The position numbers and the translations under genes are program-made. DNA of 64,000 bases, from contig NZ_JBGCCU010000017.1 in NCBI RefSeq assembly GCF_041261445.1, positions 1-64,000 on the forward strand, written 5' to 3'. Positions 41,132 through 47,934 of the stretch are shown piece after piece; positions within the stretch are counted from its first letter, which is position 1; every line of letters starts with the position of its first letter. This stretch comes from Catenulispora sp. EB89. Lineage in GTDB: Bacteria; Actinomycetota; Actinomycetes; Streptomycetales; Catenulisporaceae. Under the pieces are notes generated by a model, which saw only the letters and a list, made by a program, of their open reading frames with translations, did not search any database and had not been told where the DNA came from.

Positions 41132-41875
41132 TCAGCTCGGCGCACCCACCGGCGCACCCACCGGCGCGGCCGGCGCCGGACACGTCGCACCCTGCGGTGC
41201 GACCGACAGCGACAGGTTCGGGACCTGCAGGGCACCGAGGATGGTCAGCTCCTGGACCTGCGCCGTCACCGGGCCGAACTTCGCCACGCCGGCCTTGATG
41301 CCCCACCAGCCCGGCTGGCCGCCGAGGCCGGAGCCGCCCCAGCCGGTCAACGGCGGCGTGCCGACGGTGATCGCGGCGGAGTCGTCGCCGATCAGCACCT
41401 CGGGGTTGGTGAAGCCGGATGTGCCGACCACGCCGTTGAGGTTCAGCTGGCCGGTCGCCCTCGTGAGGTCGATGACGATGTTGGAGGCCTTGATCTCCCA
41501 GGTACCGGGGTTGTTGTCGTTCGCGGTGATCATCAGCACCACGCTGAGCGGCCCGACCGTCTGGGGCACCGCTATGCACAAGCCGTTGATCTGCCCGTTC
41601 GCGAACGCCATGCGCAGCACGTCGCGGGTCCCGCTGCTGCCGTCCGGCTTCGTGTACTGCTCCGGGGCGACGACGAGCCCGAAGTCCGTGCCGTAGAGCG
41701 AGCTGGTGGCCAGGGTCCCGCTGCCGCCCTCGACGCTGACCTGGGTGGCGAGCGTGCCGGTGGCGATCGCCGTGCCGAAGCCCGCCGCGATCGTCAGGGC
41801 CGGGACGAGAACCAGCGCCGCGCGGCCCCAGCGCGTGCCGCGGCGAGGCGGCGGTGCGGACTCGGCCGGGTTCAC
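41132..41875 (-). CDS. DUF6230-type exported protein (third copy)
   Basis: A 247-residue protein from GTG 41875. N-terminal signature RRGTRWGRAALVLVPALTIA, one hydrophobic segment, then GTLATQVSVEGGSGTLATSS, the pattern of actinomycete DUF6230 proteins (some automatic annotations call relatives cholesterol esterase, without catalytic motifs). It has an internal INGLC and a near-terminal Cys (GATCPAP), as do its two paralogues at 42.9 and 44.5 kb. It probably forms a beta-rich surface protein. Its start overlaps the stop of the preceding secreted-protein gene by 4 bp. Confidence 0.75.
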   Translation of the reverse strand: MNPAESAPPPRRGTRWGRAALVLVPALTIAAGFGTAIATGTLATQVSVEGGSGTLATSSLYGTDFGLVVAPEQYTKPDGSSGTRDVLRMAFANGQINGLCIAVPQTVGPLSVVLMITANDNNPGTWEIKASNIVIDLTRATGQLNLNGVVGTSGFTNPEVLIGDDSAAITVGTPPLTGWGGSGLGGQPGWWGIKAGVAKFGPVTAQVQELTILGALQVPNLSLSVAPQGATCPAPAAPVGAPVGAPS

Positions 41876-42525
41876 GGGCTGGTCACCGTCAGTGTGGCGG
41901 CGGGGATCTGGACCGGGTCCGGCGGCGGCGTCGTGCCGGTCGCGTAGGAACGGATCGCGTACACGGTCGCCTGGAAGTCCTTCACCGTCGAGGAGACGTT
42001 GAAGAACGACGAGGCCGCGTCGACCAGTCCGGTGTCGTTCGGCGGCGGATTGCTGGAGCAGGTGATGATGATCAGGTGCAGCCACGGGATGCAGACCTGC
42101 GTGATGGCGCCCCAGAAGTCGGTCGTCACGCCGGGCGCGCCGAGGGTCATGCCGCTGGAGCTCGAGGTGAGCGAGACCGTGTAGGCGCCCGCGCCGTCGC
42201 TGGTGGTCAGCTTCAGGTTCGTGACGCCGGTCAGCGCGGTGAACGTGTAGTGGTTGAGCTTGGTGGTCAGGCACGCACCGGTGGAATCGGTGCCGGCCAG
42301 CGTGATCGTGACGCCCTGCACGGTGCCGAGGCTGTTCGCGGAGAGGCTGTCGGCGGAGATGGTCATCGGATGCGGGCTCGGCACGAAGTCGGGCTGGTCG
42401 CTGCCGGTGGCCGGGACGCACGTCGCGGTCGCGGCCGTCGCGGCGTGCGTGGCGGCCGCGCCAGGCAGGACGCCGACCACTGCGAGCAGCGCCGCCATTA
42501 TCAAGGCCCGACGACGTGGCACCAT
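41872..42525 (-). CDS. Secreted protein of the DUF6230/DUF6114 cluster
   Basis: A 217-residue protein with a cleavable signal peptide (MVPRRRALIMAALLAVVGVL...AAATHAAT). The mature part is Thr/Ser-rich and beta-predicted with cysteines in TATCVPATG, GACLTTKL, QVCIPW and ITCSSN, which could form two disulfides. Family not recognised. It is coupled to both neighbours: a TGATG junction with the DUF6114 gene upstream and a 4-bp overlap with the DUF6230 gene downstream. It is therefore part of the same assembly unit. Confidence 0.72.
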   Translation of the reverse strand: MVPRRRALIMAALLAVVGVLPGAAATHAATAATATCVPATGSDQPDFVPSPHPMTISADSLSANSLGTVQGVTITLAGTDSTGACLTTKLNHYTFTALTGVTNLKLTTSDGAGAYTVSLTSSSSGMTLGAPGVTTDFWGAITQVCIPWLHLIIITCSSNPPPNDTGLVDAASSFFNVSSTVKDFQATVYAIRSYATGTTPPPDPVQIPAATLTVTSP

Positions 42526-42956
42526 CAGCGCGCCCCTGCGGCTTCAGCCTGTTTCCGGTCCCGCCGCCTCGGCTTCTTGTCGCCCCACCCCAGCGTCATC
42601 GACGCACCGACCACGCCGACGAACATCCCGAGGAAGAACCCGCCGAGGTTCGACCCGATCAGCGACCCGATCGCCAGCAGCGCACCGATCGCGCCGAAGG
42701 TGAAGCGCTGCTTGGGTGCCAGCCACACGATGAACCCGCAGGCCATCAGCCCGCCGCCGAACAGGTAGCCGCCCATGCCGGTCAGGCCGTGCGCGACCAG
42801 CAGCTGGATCGGGGCCATCGCGTAGTGCAGAATCACCCAGCCGCCGGTCATCATCCAGGCGCCGCCCCAGAACGGACGCGTCCGGCGGAAGGCGCGGAAC
42901 CACTTCCGGACGCCGTTCGCCCCCTGCAAGGCCGACCGCCCCGCCCGGCTCAGCAT
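42525..42956 (-). CDS. DUF6114-type membrane protein (second copy)
   Basis: A 143-residue membrane protein. After FRAFRRTRPFWGGAWMMTGG come four hydrophobic segments, ending in a basic tail (WGDKKPRRRDRKQAEAAGAR). The R-R-T-R-P-F start and N-L-G-G-F-F-L-G-M pattern match its paralogue at 43.8 kb. DUF6114 proteins accompany DUF6230 proteins in actinomycete genomes; function unknown. It overlaps the DUF6230 gene upstream by 7 bp and the next start by 1 bp. Confidence 0.78.
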   Translation of the reverse strand: MLSRAGRSALQGANGVRKWFRAFRRTRPFWGGAWMMTGGWVILHYAMAPIQLLVAHGLTGMGGYLFGGGLMACGFIVWLAPKQRFTFGAIGALLAIGSLIGSNLGGFFLGMFVGVVGASMTLGWGDKKPRRRDRKQAEAAGAR

Positions 42957-43792
42957 GGCGACGCCGGCAGCGTGCCGGTGTAGACGTTGACCGTCAGGTT
43001 CGGCAACGTCAGCTGCCCGACGATGTCCGCGTCGTACGCCGTGGCGTTCAGCCCGGCCAGGTCCACCTTGGCCCCGGCCGTCGTCCCGGTGGCCGCCGAG
43101 ACACCGAACGCCCCGGTCGTCACCGGCGCCAGTCCCGGGCCGGTCGAGGTCTGCGTCCCCAGCGGGACGCCGTCGACGGTCACCGTGTCAGCACTCTGTC
43201 CCAGCACCGCGTTCGCCAGGTTCGTCGTCCCCAGCGCCTTCAGCCCGGTGGTCTGGAAGAACAGGTCGTTCGCCGCGATCGGGTTCGCCGCGGCCGGCGG
43301 CGTCCCGGTGAACGTCGGCGGCGACGCGGTGATGCTCGGCAGCACCTGGTCGCCGCCCTTGAGCACCAGCTCCACGTTGACCGGCACCGCGGACGTGCCG
43401 AAGTTCTGCGACACGATCGCGCAGAACCCGTTCAGGCTCGCCTTGGCGAAGCCGACGCGCGCCATCGGCGTGCCGGAGGCGGCTCCGGACACGGTCTGGT
43501 TCACCAGCGCGGCGCCGAACCCGCTCGTGTTGTAGACGGCGTTGGAGTACAGCTGGAACTGCGAGTTGCTCACCATCAGGTTGACCGCCAGCGCCCCGCT
43601 CGCCACCTCCGCGCCGAGCCCGCCGATCGCCGTCATCGACGGCACGAACGCACACGCCCCGCGTCCCCACCGGGTCCCGCGCCGCGTTCCATCGTCGGCC
43701 ATCTCCAGCATCCGCCGGTTCCACTCGCGCACCGCGCCGACGACCCGCGCCACGGGCCTCGACCCCGACCCCGCCTTCTGCCGCCAGCTCAT
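42950..43792 (-). CDS. DUF6230-type exported protein (second copy)
   Basis: A 280-residue protein. A 50-residue basic N-terminal extension precedes the family start TRRGTRWGRGACAFVPSMTA and hydrophobic stretch, then GALAVNLMVSNSQFQLYSNA. Internal LNGFCAIVSQNFG and a C-terminal Cys as the last residue (GTLPASPC) mirror the other copies. Long Ala/Thr/Pro segments in the second half suggest an extended surface protein. It overlaps the upstream DUF6114 gene by 4 bp. Confidence 0.75.
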   Translation of the reverse strand: MSWRQKAGSGSRPVARVVGAVREWNRRMLEMADDGTRRGTRWGRGACAFVPSMTAIGGLGAEVASGALAVNLMVSNSQFQLYSNAVYNTSGFGAALVNQTVSGAASGTPMARVGFAKASLNGFCAIVSQNFGTSAVPVNVELVLKGGDQVLPSITASPPTFTGTPPAAANPIAANDLFFQTTGLKALGTTNLANAVLGQSADTVTVDGVPLGTQTSTGPGLAPVTTGAFGVSAATGTTAGAKVDLAGLNATAYDADIVGQLTLPNLTVNVYTGTLPASPC

Positions 43793-44436
43793 ATCCCGGC
43801 TCCCGGCTGGATCCTGCGGAACCACCGACGCTTCTTCTCAGGCTTCTTCGGCATCCAGCCGAACGCCATCGACCCGCCGAGCACCGCGAAGAACATCCCG
43901 ACGAAGAAGCCGCCGAGGTTGCACAGCGGGAACGACACGACACCCAGCACCACCGCGATGACCCCGCCGACGTACCGCTGCGACGGCATCACCAACACCA
44001 GCGCCGCGATCAGCCACAGCGCGACGCCAGCACCCATGCCGTAGATGCCGCCGACGCCGATGTGCGGAAGGTACTTCGGCGGCGATTTGGTCAGGTAGAA
44101 CAGGATCAGGCCGCCGAGCGCGATCCAGACGGCGGCGTAGAACGGCCGGGTGCGCCGGTACGCGCGGAACCAGCGGTAGAAGCCCAGCGCCAGGTTCGGC
44201 AGCAGGAGGCCCGCGACCAGCAGAGCCAGCGCGAGCGCGGCGGCGTACAGGTGGATGATCGCCGGCTGCTTCCCGAACGGGCTGATCGCCACGTAGAAGA
44301 GCAGCCACGCGGTGCCGGCGATCCAGATCGCGGCATAGCGCGGACTGGTGCGCCGGAAGTGGCGGAATCCACGGGCAGGCTCCGCCGGCTCGGGTTCATC
44401 GGTCTCGGGTTCATCGGTCTCGAGTTCATCGGACAT
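43789..44436 (-). CDS. DUF6114-type membrane protein (first copy)
   Basis: A 215-residue protein. An acidic start with repeated ETDEPE units is followed by two hydrophobic helices (about 35-85) and then the DUF6114 core FRAYRRTRPFYAAVWIALGG with four more. A basic tail EKKRRWFRRIQPG faces the cytoplasm. It resembles the smaller copy at 42.5 kb plus an extra N-terminal membrane pair, which itself repeats an F-R-R-T-S-P-R-Y motif. It follows the DUF6230 gene by 70 bp. Confidence 0.78.
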   Translation of the reverse strand: MSDELETDEPETDEPEPAEPARGFRHFRRTSPRYAAIWIAGTAWLLFYVAISPFGKQPAIIHLYAAALALALLVAGLLLPNLALGFYRWFRAYRRTRPFYAAVWIALGGLILFYLTKSPPKYLPHIGVGGIYGMGAGVALWLIAALVLVMPSQRYVGGVIAVVLGVVSFPLCNLGGFFVGMFFAVLGGSMAFGWMPKKPEKKRRWFRRIQPGAGI

Positions 44437-44506
44437 GTCAGGCCTCGCATCACGATGTCGGGGAGGGTGACGGGGCCCGGACTGCCGGACCCCGTCCGCT
44501 GGAACC

Positions 44507-45199
44507 TCAGTTACAGACCGGTCCCGCCGTGCTGCCCGCGGAGTTCCCCGGCTTGTTGATGCCGAGGCCGAAGTTGGTCAGCGTGGTCGTGGTCGTGATC
44601 GCGGCCTGCTGCGGCGTCGCGTTCAGCCCGCTCACGTCCGCGGCCGCCTGGGTCGCGTCCAGCTCGAACTGCCCGGCGCCGTCCTGCACGCCGGCCGCCG
44701 CGTTGTTCGCCGCCGCCTCGCCGAGGTACACGGCGCTGGTGTTGGAGTTCGGCGTCAGCGTCACCGACGGCAGGCTCAGGCTGGTGGTGTTCAGCGCCAG
44801 CCCGGAGAACTTCGCGATGTTCGCGTCGTTGTTGACCGTCGCGTACGTCGTGTTGCCGTCGTTCGGCGTGTAGATGTACAGGTTCACCGGCACGCTCAGC
44901 GTCCCGATCGTGAAGGTGTGCGACGCGTGCACGCACAGCCCCTCGATGTACGCGGTCGGGATGCCGACTTCGCTACTGGCCGCGTTGCCCGAGCCGACAG
45001 TGTCCGGCAGCGCCACGATGCCGCCGGGCGCGGCGATGTGGCCGGAGCTGATGTTCATCGAGTCGGTGGTCAGCGAGATGCTCGAGGCGAGCACGCCCTC
45101 GTACATCGCGAGCGTCATCCCGATCACGGCGGCCATCGCCGGCATGCCGACGATCGCCGAGCGGCGCCATCTGGTGACGCCCTTTGCTTCGGAGCTCAT
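44507..45199 (-). CDS. DUF6230-type exported protein (first copy)
   Basis: A 230-residue protein starting at 45199, with GGGAGGACC upstream. N-terminus GVTRWRRSAIVGMPAMAAVI with one hydrophobic helix and then LASSISLTTDSMNISSGHIA. The beta-rich remainder has IEGLCVHASHTFTIG and a penultimate Cys (GPVCN). As the first structural gene after the signal peptidase it is the best candidate client of that enzyme. The ATG is chosen because it gives the family N-terminus; a further upstream ATG lacks a ribosome site. Confidence 0.78.
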   Translation of the reverse strand: MSSEAKGVTRWRRSAIVGMPAMAAVIGMTLAMYEGVLASSISLTTDSMNISSGHIAAPGGIVALPDTVGSGNAASSEVGIPTAYIEGLCVHASHTFTIGTLSVPVNLYIYTPNDGNTTYATVNNDANIAKFSGLALNTTSLSLPSVTLTPNSNTSAVYLGEAAANNAAAGVQDGAGQFELDATQAAADVSGLNATPQQAAITTTTTLTNFGLGINKPGNSAGSTAGPVCN

Positions 45200-45323
45200 T
45201 GCTTGGTCCTCCCTAGACGTGTGACCCATGAAGAACCACCGCCGGCGTGGTGAGAGGACGATGTCACCGGCGTTTCAGGCCGCCAACGAACAAAAGATCG
45301 ATTTACTCTCCCTTTGCCGAGTG

Positions 45324-45929
45324 TCACATCGGAGCCGTGGTCTCAGTGAGCGTCGGCCGGCCGCCGATCCCCCACGACAGCGAGAGCGGCCAGGTGTGCA
45401 TCGAGACCCGCCCGATCACCTTCGGGACCTCGCCCCACCCGAACTTCCGCGAGTCCGCCGAGCCGTCGGGGTTGTCGCCGAGGTAGAAGAAGTGCCCGGC
45501 CGGCACGGTCTGCACCTGCGCGACCGTCGACCCCGAGCCGTCGGCCTTGCAGCACGTACCGCCGAACGCGTCCTGCCCGGCCCACGCCGGAACCCGCACC
45601 CGATACCAGGGGCCTGATCCGGCTTCCTGAAGCAGCACCTGGTAGGCGTCGTCGGTCGAGGAACGGATCTCGACCTTGTCGCCGGGCACCCCGATGACCC
45701 GCTTGACGATCGTCGTGTTCCGGACCGATTCGTTGAACACCACGACGTCGAACCGGTGCACCTGATCCGCCGACCCCGGCGTGACCAGGAACCGGCTGCC
45801 GTTGCGCAGCGTCGGCTCCATGCTGTGGCCGTCCACGGTCCGGCTCTGCGTGGCCAGCGCCCCGACCGCCGTGACCAGCAGCACCACCAGCACGCCGACC
45901 ACGGCCCCGGCGATTCTCAAGGCACGCAT
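45324..45929 (-). CDS. Signal peptidase I (S26), small actinobacterial type
   Basis: A 201-residue membrane-anchored serine protease with one N-terminal helix (5-27). Catalytic Ser36 in DGHSMEPTLRNG, general-base Lys76 in IVKRVIGVPGDKV, and the domain E block FYLGDNPDGSADSRKFGWG. It cleaves signal peptides at the outer membrane face. GGGAGGGG precedes the ATG. It is shorter than LepB and lies 124 bp upstream of the DUF6230/DUF6114 genes on the same strand, suggesting it is dedicated to those exported proteins. Confidence 0.92.
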   Translation of the reverse strand: MRALRIAGAVVGVLVVLLVTAVGALATQSRTVDGHSMEPTLRNGSRFLVTPGSADQVHRFDVVVFNESVRNTTIVKRVIGVPGDKVEIRSSTDDAYQVLLQEAGSGPWYRVRVPAWAGQDAFGGTCCKADGSGSTVAQVQTVPAGHFFYLGDNPDGSADSRKFGWGEVPKVIGRVSMHTWPLSLSWGIGGRPTLTETTAPM

Positions 45930-46015
45930 GAATCCCCTCCCTACCGACCGGTAATGATTGGCGAGCAGGGTAGAGGCGCGAACGGCAGGAAGAGAAGAGC
46001 CCGGAAGCTCCGGAC

Positions 46016-46612
46016 CTACTCGCGGTCGGGAAGCAGCGCCACGCGCGTGACGATCCGCGCGATCCGCTCGGCGGTCCGCTCCGGGGAGTCGACCGGCTGC
46101 ACGATGTTGCTGACCGTCAGCCGCACCACGCACTCCACGGCCAGCTCCCGCGAGTAGTCGTCGACCTCGGGCCAGGCGTGCGCGGCGTAGGCGCCGAGCA
46201 TCGCGGTCGCGGTGTCCAGCAACGGCTCCGACCGCGTCGTCAGGTGTGCGATCAGCTCGCCGTCGCCGCCGCGCTGGCTGGTGATGACCGCCTTCAGCAG
46301 CTCGTTGTCGGCCGCGGTGCGCAACGTGAACTCGATGCCCGCGGTGACCCCGGCACGCAGGTCCGCGCCGTGTCCGTCGAGCACCTCGCGGATGCCGTCC
46401 AGGAACCGGTCGACCTCGCGCATCACCAGCGCCTGGCCCAGCGCGTCCTTGCTGCCGAACTCGGTGTAGCAGGTCTGCCGGCTCACCCCGGCCCGCTCGG
46501 CGACGTGCGCCATGCGCAGCCCGGCCCAGCCGGCGTCGGCGACCAGGCCGTACGCGGCGTCGAGCACGCGGTCCCGCAGGCTGGTGCGGACCGATTCGGT
46601 GTAGCGAGTCAT
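46016..46612 (-). CDS. TetR-family regulator, probable regulator of alkane genes
   Basis: A 198-residue repressor: RDRVLDAAYGLVADAGWAGL, VAERAGVSRQTCYTEFGSKD helix-turn-helix, and a helical ligand domain. It is divergent from alkB with a 131-bp promoter region between them. TetR genes accompany alkB operons in Rhodococcus and Dietzia (alkU/alkX), where fatty acids or alkanes are effectors; the same role is inferred here. Confidence 0.88.
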   Translation of the reverse strand: MTRYTESVRTSLRDRVLDAAYGLVADAGWAGLRMAHVAERAGVSRQTCYTEFGSKDALGQALVMREVDRFLDGIREVLDGHGADLRAGVTAGIEFTLRTAADNELLKAVITSQRGGDGELIAHLTTRSEPLLDTATAMLGAYAAHAWPEVDDYSRELAVECVVRLTVSNIVQPVDSPERTAERIARIVTRVALLPDRE

Positions 46613-46659
46613 CCCTGGCGATTGTATTCAACCCCGGCCTCCGGGCCGTCGCCGACTGC

Positions 46660-46688
46660 TTGACACTCCCAATGTTTCTGTCTAGTTT
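46660..46688 (+). promoter_or_regulatory. Promoter of the alkB operon with overlapping direct repeat
   Basis: TTGACA (46660-46665) and TAGTTT (46683-46688) are separated by 17 bp, a near-consensus housekeeping promoter placing transcription start about 50 bp before alkB. GTTTCTG occurs twice (46674-46680 and 46685-46691), 11 bp apart and overlapping the -10 box, and GACACT flanks it on both sides. A repressor bound there would block the promoter. Confidence 0.7.
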
Positions 46689-46743
46689 CTGGACACTGCT
46701 CGCACTTTTGTAAGGCACTTCTCGATTCACGAGGGAGCGGACC

Positions 46744-47934
46744 ATGACGGCGATCGCCGTGTCCGGACCCGCCGAGAGCTCCTGGCGGGACGGCAAGAAA
46801 TACCTCTGGCCGCTGGGCCTGCTGGTCCCGATGATCCCGTGGATCGCCTGGGGGCTGGCCGCGGCCACCGGCCTGGGCGTCGCCTGGTTCGCCGGACCGA
46901 TCCTGGTGTTCGGGATCTTCCCGTTCTTCGACTGGGCGATCGGCAAGGACTCCGACAATCCCCCGGACTCGGTGCTGGCGTTCCTGGAGAGCCAGCGCTA
47001 CTACCGCTGGTGCACGTACCTCTACCTGCCGCTCCAGTACGCGGGGCTGGTGACGGCGGCCTGGATCTGGTCCACCGGCCGCCTCGACACCGTCGACGCG
47101 ATCGGGCTGGCGGTCAGCGTCGGCACGGTCGGCGGCATCGGCATCAACACCGCGCACGAGCTCGGCCACAAGAAGGACGACCTGGAGCGCTGGCTGTCGA
47201 AGGTGGCGCTGGCGCAGACCCTGTACGGGCACTTCTACATCGAGCACAACCGCGGCCACCACGTGCGCGTGGCCACTCCCGAGGACCCGGCGAGCTCGCG
47301 GCTCGGCGAGAGCTTCTACCGCTTCTGGCCGCGCTCGGTCGCCGGCAGCTTCCGCTCCGGATGGCATCTGGAGAAGGCCCGGCTGGAGCGCTCGGACCGC
47401 CGGCCGTGGACGCTGCGCAACGACGTGCTCAACGCCTGGGCGATGTCGGTCGCGGTGTTCGCCGCGCTGATCGCGGTGTTCGGCGTGCGGATCGTGCCGT
47501 ACCTGCTGATCCAGGCGGTGTTCGGGTTCTCGCTGCTGGAGGTCGTGAACTACCTGGAGCACTACGGTCTGCTGCGGCAGAAGAACGGCGACCGCTACGA
47601 GCGCTGCGCGCCCCGGCACAGCTGGAACAGCAACAACATCGCCTCGAACGTGCTGCTCTACCACCTGCAGCGGCACAGCGACCACCACGCCAACCCGACC
47701 CGGCGCTACCAGGCGCTGCGGCACTTCGACGACGCGCCGGAGCTGCCCGGCGGCTACGCGACGATGATCGTGCTGGCGTACGTGCCGCCGTTGTGGCGCA
47801 AGGTGATGGACCCGAAGGTCGTGGCGCACTTCGACGGCGACGTACGGCTGGCGAATCTCCAGCCGCGCAAGCGGGAGAAGCTGATCGCGAAGTACGGGGC
47901 GACGGCTGGAGCACGCTCCGGGGCCCGGGCATGA
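46744..47934 (+). CDS. alkB: Alkane 1-monooxygenase
   Basis: A 396-residue integral-membrane diiron hydroxylase that oxidises the terminal methyl group of alkanes. All family histidine boxes are present: HELGHKKDD (from 138), [10 protein letters not shown] (from 167), the [10 protein letters not shown] motif, and [19 protein letters not shown] (from 308). Six hydrophobic helices precede and surround them. GGGAG precedes the ATG. It is first in an overlapping operon with two rubredoxins and a rubredoxin reductase, a complete electron-transfer chain. Compare: about 400 residues is normal for AlkB. Confidence 0.97.

Follow-up and report, generated by a model that had tools for sequence, protein, structure and literature searches.

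A type I signal peptidase (S26) gene and six adjoining genes, all on the minus strand at positions 41132-45929 of the window (the 64,000-nucleotide stretch analyzed here, from the 11.9 Mb Catenulispora genome of a soil actinomycete), form an ancient, co-inherited composite locus. Comparative sequence data support well the idea of a dedicated peptidase encoded with its own exported proteins, and the most likely role of the locus is the maturation of these exported beta-proteins by a specialized Ser/Lys signal peptidase. Conservation of the seven-gene set across five actinomycete families suggests a system for export or envelope assembly that has not been described before.

The module draws on two families, DUF6230 and DUF6114, that are near-universal in Streptomyces and essentially unstudied under these names: among 5.39 million open papers, a single one mentions DUF6230, as a promoter source, and DUF6114 is not named. 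The locus links both to a private signal peptidase, providing a mechanistic handle in which substrates, enzyme and membrane partners can be named.

Organization and orientation of the locus

The signal peptidase (45324-45929; 201 aa; PF10502, TIGR02227) precedes an array of six genes: the exported or N-anchored, DUF6230-like 6230a (44507-45199); the DUF6114 protein 6114a (43789-44436), with hydrophobic segments that fit a multi-spanning membrane protein; the DUF6230 protein 6230b (42950-43792); the DUF6114 membrane protein 6114b (42525-42956); a secreted Ser/Thr-rich protein that matches no known family (41872-42525); and the DUF6230 protein 6230c (41132-41875). Successive array junctions measure +70, -4, -7, -1 and -4 bp, confirming the first-pass annotation that four of five overlap by 1-7 bp. 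An assembly accident is ruled out as the source of this tandem arrangement by its recurrence in six genomes.

Against curated cut-offs of 27.5 bits for PF19741 and 27.9 bits for PF19609, Pfam matches are obtained for 6230b (PF19741, 54.2 bits), 6230c (PF19741, 70.3 bits), 6114a (PF19609, 100.7 bits, in two stretches, the second one N-terminal) and 6114b (PF19609, 107.4 bits); the signal peptidase also passes Pfam. Neither 6230a nor the secreted protein has a Pfam match. The initial count of three DUF6230-type proteins is therefore secured by Pfam for 6230b and 6230c, and 6230a appears to belong to the family on the basis of distant profile and phmmer matches and its position in the tree. As first described, all three carry an internal G-(L/F)-C and a cysteine at or near the C-terminus: EGLC/VCN in 6230a, NGFC/SPC in 6230b (Cys124, Cys280) and NGLC/TCPAP in 6230c (Cys100, Cys232). 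This pattern is real, yet general to DUF6230 and not specific to the locus: 98 non-array DUF6230 sequences conserve the two cysteines (91% and 93%), glycines, one serine and hydrophobic positions.

The co-directional orientation of the peptidase gene is particular to the window; in the other five of the six array genomes, the gene is divergent. As the divergent order is common to five genomes, the order in the window is derived. Alignment of the window with the DNA of a second Catenulispora (G005, locus L058) indicates that the peptidase gene and its own upstream region (45930-46015, minus strand) were inverted as a block. The upstream region of the array (45200-45330, minus strand), a probable promoter that is conserved in the second Catenulispora despite the opposite orientation of the peptidase gene there, stayed in place and in the window now abuts the peptidase stop codon. 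Given the divergent peptidase gene of the other genomes and the retention of a separate upstream region by the array, two separate transcripts are likely, and a single transcript is unlikely. No long inverted repeats were found flanking the peptidase gene; this disfavors a phase-variable inversion and makes a one-off event likelier.

A search for a sigma-70 promoter consensus found none. Upstream of the peptidase gene, the palindrome TACCG-N2-CGGTA occurs once per stretch, at 45942-45953 in the window and at 8792-8803 in L058, and is a possible operator that may have a regulatory role; the neighbor on that side is a TetR gene (46016-46612). Its confinement to the two Catenulispora rules out a common operator across arrays.

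Recurrence and shared history of peptidase and array

The gene order S26, then 6230a-6114a-6230b-6114b-secreted-6230c, is shared by six genomes from five actinomycete families: the window genome, G005 (L058), G101 (L135), G468 (L150), G462 (L205) and G849 (L206). In G005, the six array genes are 74-91% identical to those of the window and the peptidase, the closest named relative of the window enzyme, is 80% identical; L058 is a MAG contig that ends just beyond the peptidase gene, but four other families show the arrangement seen in it. Genomes G101 and G468, from other families, retain the six genes in unchanged order with a divergent peptidase. A DUF6230 profile built from the first four arrays, free of any S26 information, was run on 395 genomes of the class and found two more triple arrays, in G462 and G849, each with a divergent S26 gene at its 5' end. 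Built in this way, the profile makes these two cases a real test of the association.

DUF6230 and DUF6114 are present in 39 of 41 relatives and are neighbors in most loci, and ordinary pairs of the two are nearly universal in Streptomyces and Catenulispora. The peptidase accompanies every triple-DUF6230 array (6/6 genomes, five families), as compared with 0/64 ordinary loci in which S26 lies within 8 kb (single DUF6230 or non-array arrangement; neighborhoods usually of +/-10 kb; L058 counted as an array). The corresponding Fisher value of 5e-7 treats L058 as non-array, its third copy having been hidden by overlapping ORFs, and the corrected table is stronger; the six array genomes are not fully independent, though spread over five families. 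Within the window genome itself, the two ordinary DUF6230-DUF6114 pairs (contigs C13 and C15) have no S26. The expectation that a short S26 peptidase would neighbor these families in other genomes thus fails for the families at large and holds for the expanded array. A tie between S26 and every DUF6230 locus is ruled out by the 0/64 count.

This peptidase type is itself nearly confined to arrays. Its profile, in a search that also took in actinomycete LepBs beyond those of the tree described below, gives six matches at 190-316 bits among the 395 genomes of the class, with the next match at 84 bits; five of those at or above 190 bits lie beside arrays, and the sixth is an orphan in G482. In a tree with 29 LepBs from Streptomycetales genomes, the six array peptidases form one clade on a long stem (support 100/99.8). 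Array DUF6230 proteins behave similarly: positions b and c are each monophyletic (95/84 and 98/96), and 17/18 array copies cluster, the exception being the long-branched L150_6230a. The peptidase, 6230b and 6230c share an identical unrooted topology, separating L150, the window with L058, L206, and the pair (L135, L205). For most gene pairs, the distance matrices are correlated (for example, r=0.78, p=0.017 for S26 versus 6114a), with a weak pair in S26 versus 6230c (r=0.37, p=0.16). Taken in combination, the contrast of 6/6 with 0/64, the single peptidase clade, the matching topologies and the near-confinement of this S26 type to arrays identify an ancient, co-inherited locus.

The gene set can also be lost together. 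In G495, one deletion joined the tail of the peptidase gene to the secreted-protein gene and everything between was lost, a joint loss in a single event. The secreted protein is homologous in the window, L058, L206, L150 and L169, and is a positional match only in L135 and L205. The orphan peptidase of G482 (L255, 4572-5111) belongs to the array clade; its 7.9 kb contig carries no DUF6230 or DUF6114 gene, and its neighbors are unrelated.

The signal peptidase and the exported proteins

The window enzyme scores 103.9 bits against PF10502 (cut-off 22.9) and 107.3 bits against TIGR02227 (cut-off 47). Its architecture comprises an N-terminal transmembrane segment at about residues 6-24; a catalytic dyad of Ser36, in GHSMEPTL, and Lys76, in VKRVIG; and the motif GDN..S.DSR, so that boxes B, D and E are present. 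The serine, the lysine and the GDN are invariant across the six orthologues. The best profile likeness is to Gram-positive SPase I structures. These features place it among the P-type (S26A) signal peptidases. Actinobacterial and Gram-positive LepB enzymes (S26A; PDB 4wvg, 4me8) have the same family, motifs and dyad; the array peptidases differ in forming a separate clade, in their clade-specific invariant motifs PAW (114-116) and CC (126-127), and in being tied to the array.

The exported proteins were examined through predicted structures. The models of 6230c (pLDDT 83.7) and 6230b (pLDDT 82.4), both of good average confidence, each show an N-terminal helix, at residues 16-38 and 42-64 respectively, followed by an all-beta domain. 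A fold search of the PDB with both models gave no match at E<=0.001 or Z>=5, and a DUF6230 sequence search against PDB chains gave nothing significant. The helix usually ends in an A-x-A-like site, and ordinary DUF6230 proteins share both helix and site; some array members, such as 6230c of G101, lack a clear A-x-A. Arrays and pairs both conserve the n-region that precedes the helix (G-T-R-W-x-R).

The resemblance to SipW/TasA and sortase-pilin loci put forward in the first-pass annotation proves to be one of analogy. The SipW/TasA(-TapA) system of Bacillus is similar in that the gene for a small specialized signal peptidase accompanies those for a few beta-rich proteins that are exported. SipW is, however, an ER-type (S26B) enzyme with a Ser/His dyad, whereas the array enzyme has Ser/Lys, with lysine at the general-base position, and scores 19 bits against the SipW model NF046067, for which the cut-off is 190 bits. 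No array protein matches a TasA/camelysin profile of Pfam or NCBIfam at E<=1, and, as regards a TasA-like jelly roll, the DUF6230 models are all-beta and find no PDB match at the thresholds above. SipW/TasA loci also have no counterpart to the DUF6114 membrane proteins, and the array peptidase gene, unlike theirs, is mostly divergent. With sortase-pilin loci, the array shares the principle of pairing surface proteins with a peptidase of their own; no sortase, LPXTG-type C-terminus or transpeptidation feature occurs among the seven genes. Membership in either system is not supported. Another close system is the Streptomyces DUF6230-DUF6114 pair (SCO5420-type), in which genes of the same two families adjoin and are often accompanied by a third that encodes an exported protein. 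That pair has one copy of each family and no S26, in contrast to the three DUF6230 and two DUF6114 proteins of the array and its own peptidase.

A proposed maturation module and its alternatives

The mechanism that best explains the data would involve: cleavage by the membrane-anchored Ser/Lys peptidase of the exported proteins encoded beside it, namely the three paralogous DUF6230 beta-proteins, with their N-terminal hydrophobic helix, and the secreted protein; participation of the two small DUF6114 proteins as membrane partners of DUF6230 that would accept the mature chains or pass them on; and joint action of the mature proteins outside the membrane, which in its simplest form would be a hetero-oligomeric envelope or surface assembly. 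We give this full scheme an even chance. The dedicated surface-assembly system first proposed thereby stands in its peptidase component, on the strength of the 6/6 occurrence, the five families, the S26 clade and the matching tree; surface assembly is plausible, and we infer it, as we do cleavage of the neighboring proteins and the DUF6114 partnership. The more specific version is an undescribed actinomycete system of export and assembly, in which the private peptidase, the four exported proteins and the two membrane partners would build a multi-component extracellular structure out of beta-proteins with no PDB fold match in these searches; it is somewhat unlikely. Several observations count against the mechanism: the weak correlation between S26 and 6230c, the array-free peptidase of G482, the lack of a clear A-x-A site in some array members, and the orientation and upstream regions that make a single transcript unlikely. 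Moreover, as ordinary DUF6230 proteins share the helix with its A-x-A-like end, and general signal peptidases presumably process them, the need for a special enzyme is not obvious.

An alternative, which we consider unlikely, is that the array proteins act on lipids or sterols outside the cell, for uptake or modification of hydrophobic substrates, with the peptidase as co-inherited maturase and no assembly. The Streptomyces pair adjoins pyruvate kinase, ackA and pta (pyk2/ackA/pta), which by synteny leads to SCO5420, a gene named as a cholesterol esterase and induced almost 37-fold on Tween (PMC7494193). Through this synteny, the label may apply to DUF6230. In S. scabiei, proteins annotated as cholesterol esterases are found in abundance outside the cell (PMC5158115), and an actinomycete cholesterol esterase family is attributed to Xiang et al. 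2007 as cited in PMC4098958. Also in keeping with a lipid role, f91 pairs adjoin a cholesterol-oxidase-like GMC enzyme (565.7 bits, below the cut-off of 850), and two arrays, those of the window and of G849, adjoin a TetR_C_35 regulator and an AlkB-like gene of the FA_desaturase family. This latter link is, however, limited to 2/6 arrays. The 98 non-array DUF6230 sequences conserve neither His nor Asp nor Glu, so the acid/base residues of a classical hydrolase are not found; the predicted all-beta fold has no hydrolase match; and three paralogues with membrane partners would be unusual for one enzyme. These findings call into question the "cholesterol esterase" label of the family. Given the recurring lipid-related neighbors, the proteins may have a role in contact with hydrophobic substrates, whether they bind lipids at the surface or are unusual enzymes.

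If the DUF6230 helices were instead uncut N-terminal anchors associated with DUF6114, the peptidase would cut only the secreted protein or other substrates. The conserved G-T-R-W-x-R n-region, unusual for a disposable signal peptide, and the single long helix of the models fit this reading, which is nonetheless improbable: most array members have small residues at -3/-1-like positions at the helix end, and the "cholesterol esterase" proteins, if indeed DUF6230, are found extracellularly (PMC5158115). We regard as very improbable that the peptidase is a passenger of a mobile cassette and its adjacency devoid of functional meaning. Such a cassette would account for the patchy distribution of arrays (2/10 Catenulispora, one of many f91 genomes), which suggests transfer or frequent loss, and for both the G482 orphan and the G495 deletion. 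Against it, none of the six arrays, which span five families, has lost the peptidase; its catalytic residues are intact at 35-40% identity, and it was retained despite the local inversion in the window. Maturation of the locus's own exported beta-proteins stays the preferred role.

Several features of the surrounding genes were also recorded. The AlkB-like gene (our reading; the Pfam name is FA_desaturase) and the TetR_C_35 regulator lie at 46016-47934 in the window and at 4393-6251 in L206, the locus of G849, from another family. In L142-L149, L152, L153 and L171, pairs stand beside the GMC gene, and DUF6114 there is often much extended at its C-terminus (405-496 aa in total). Many ordinary pairs, in L143, L146, L151, L172, L224 and others, are followed, as in the array, by a third gene whose product looks exported and has no known family. 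A protein of 808-844 aa with a DUF6230-like region is encoded, in another class, divergently to a DUF6230 gene (L139, 5721-8147; L154, 6006-8540). Finally, in two families (L150, 6400-8597; L205, 5785-8092), the peptidase is followed, in the same order, by a protein with an Abi_alpha domain and by one of 451/452 aa; the latter has a weak DUF445 match in L150, and similar genes persist in the decayed L169.
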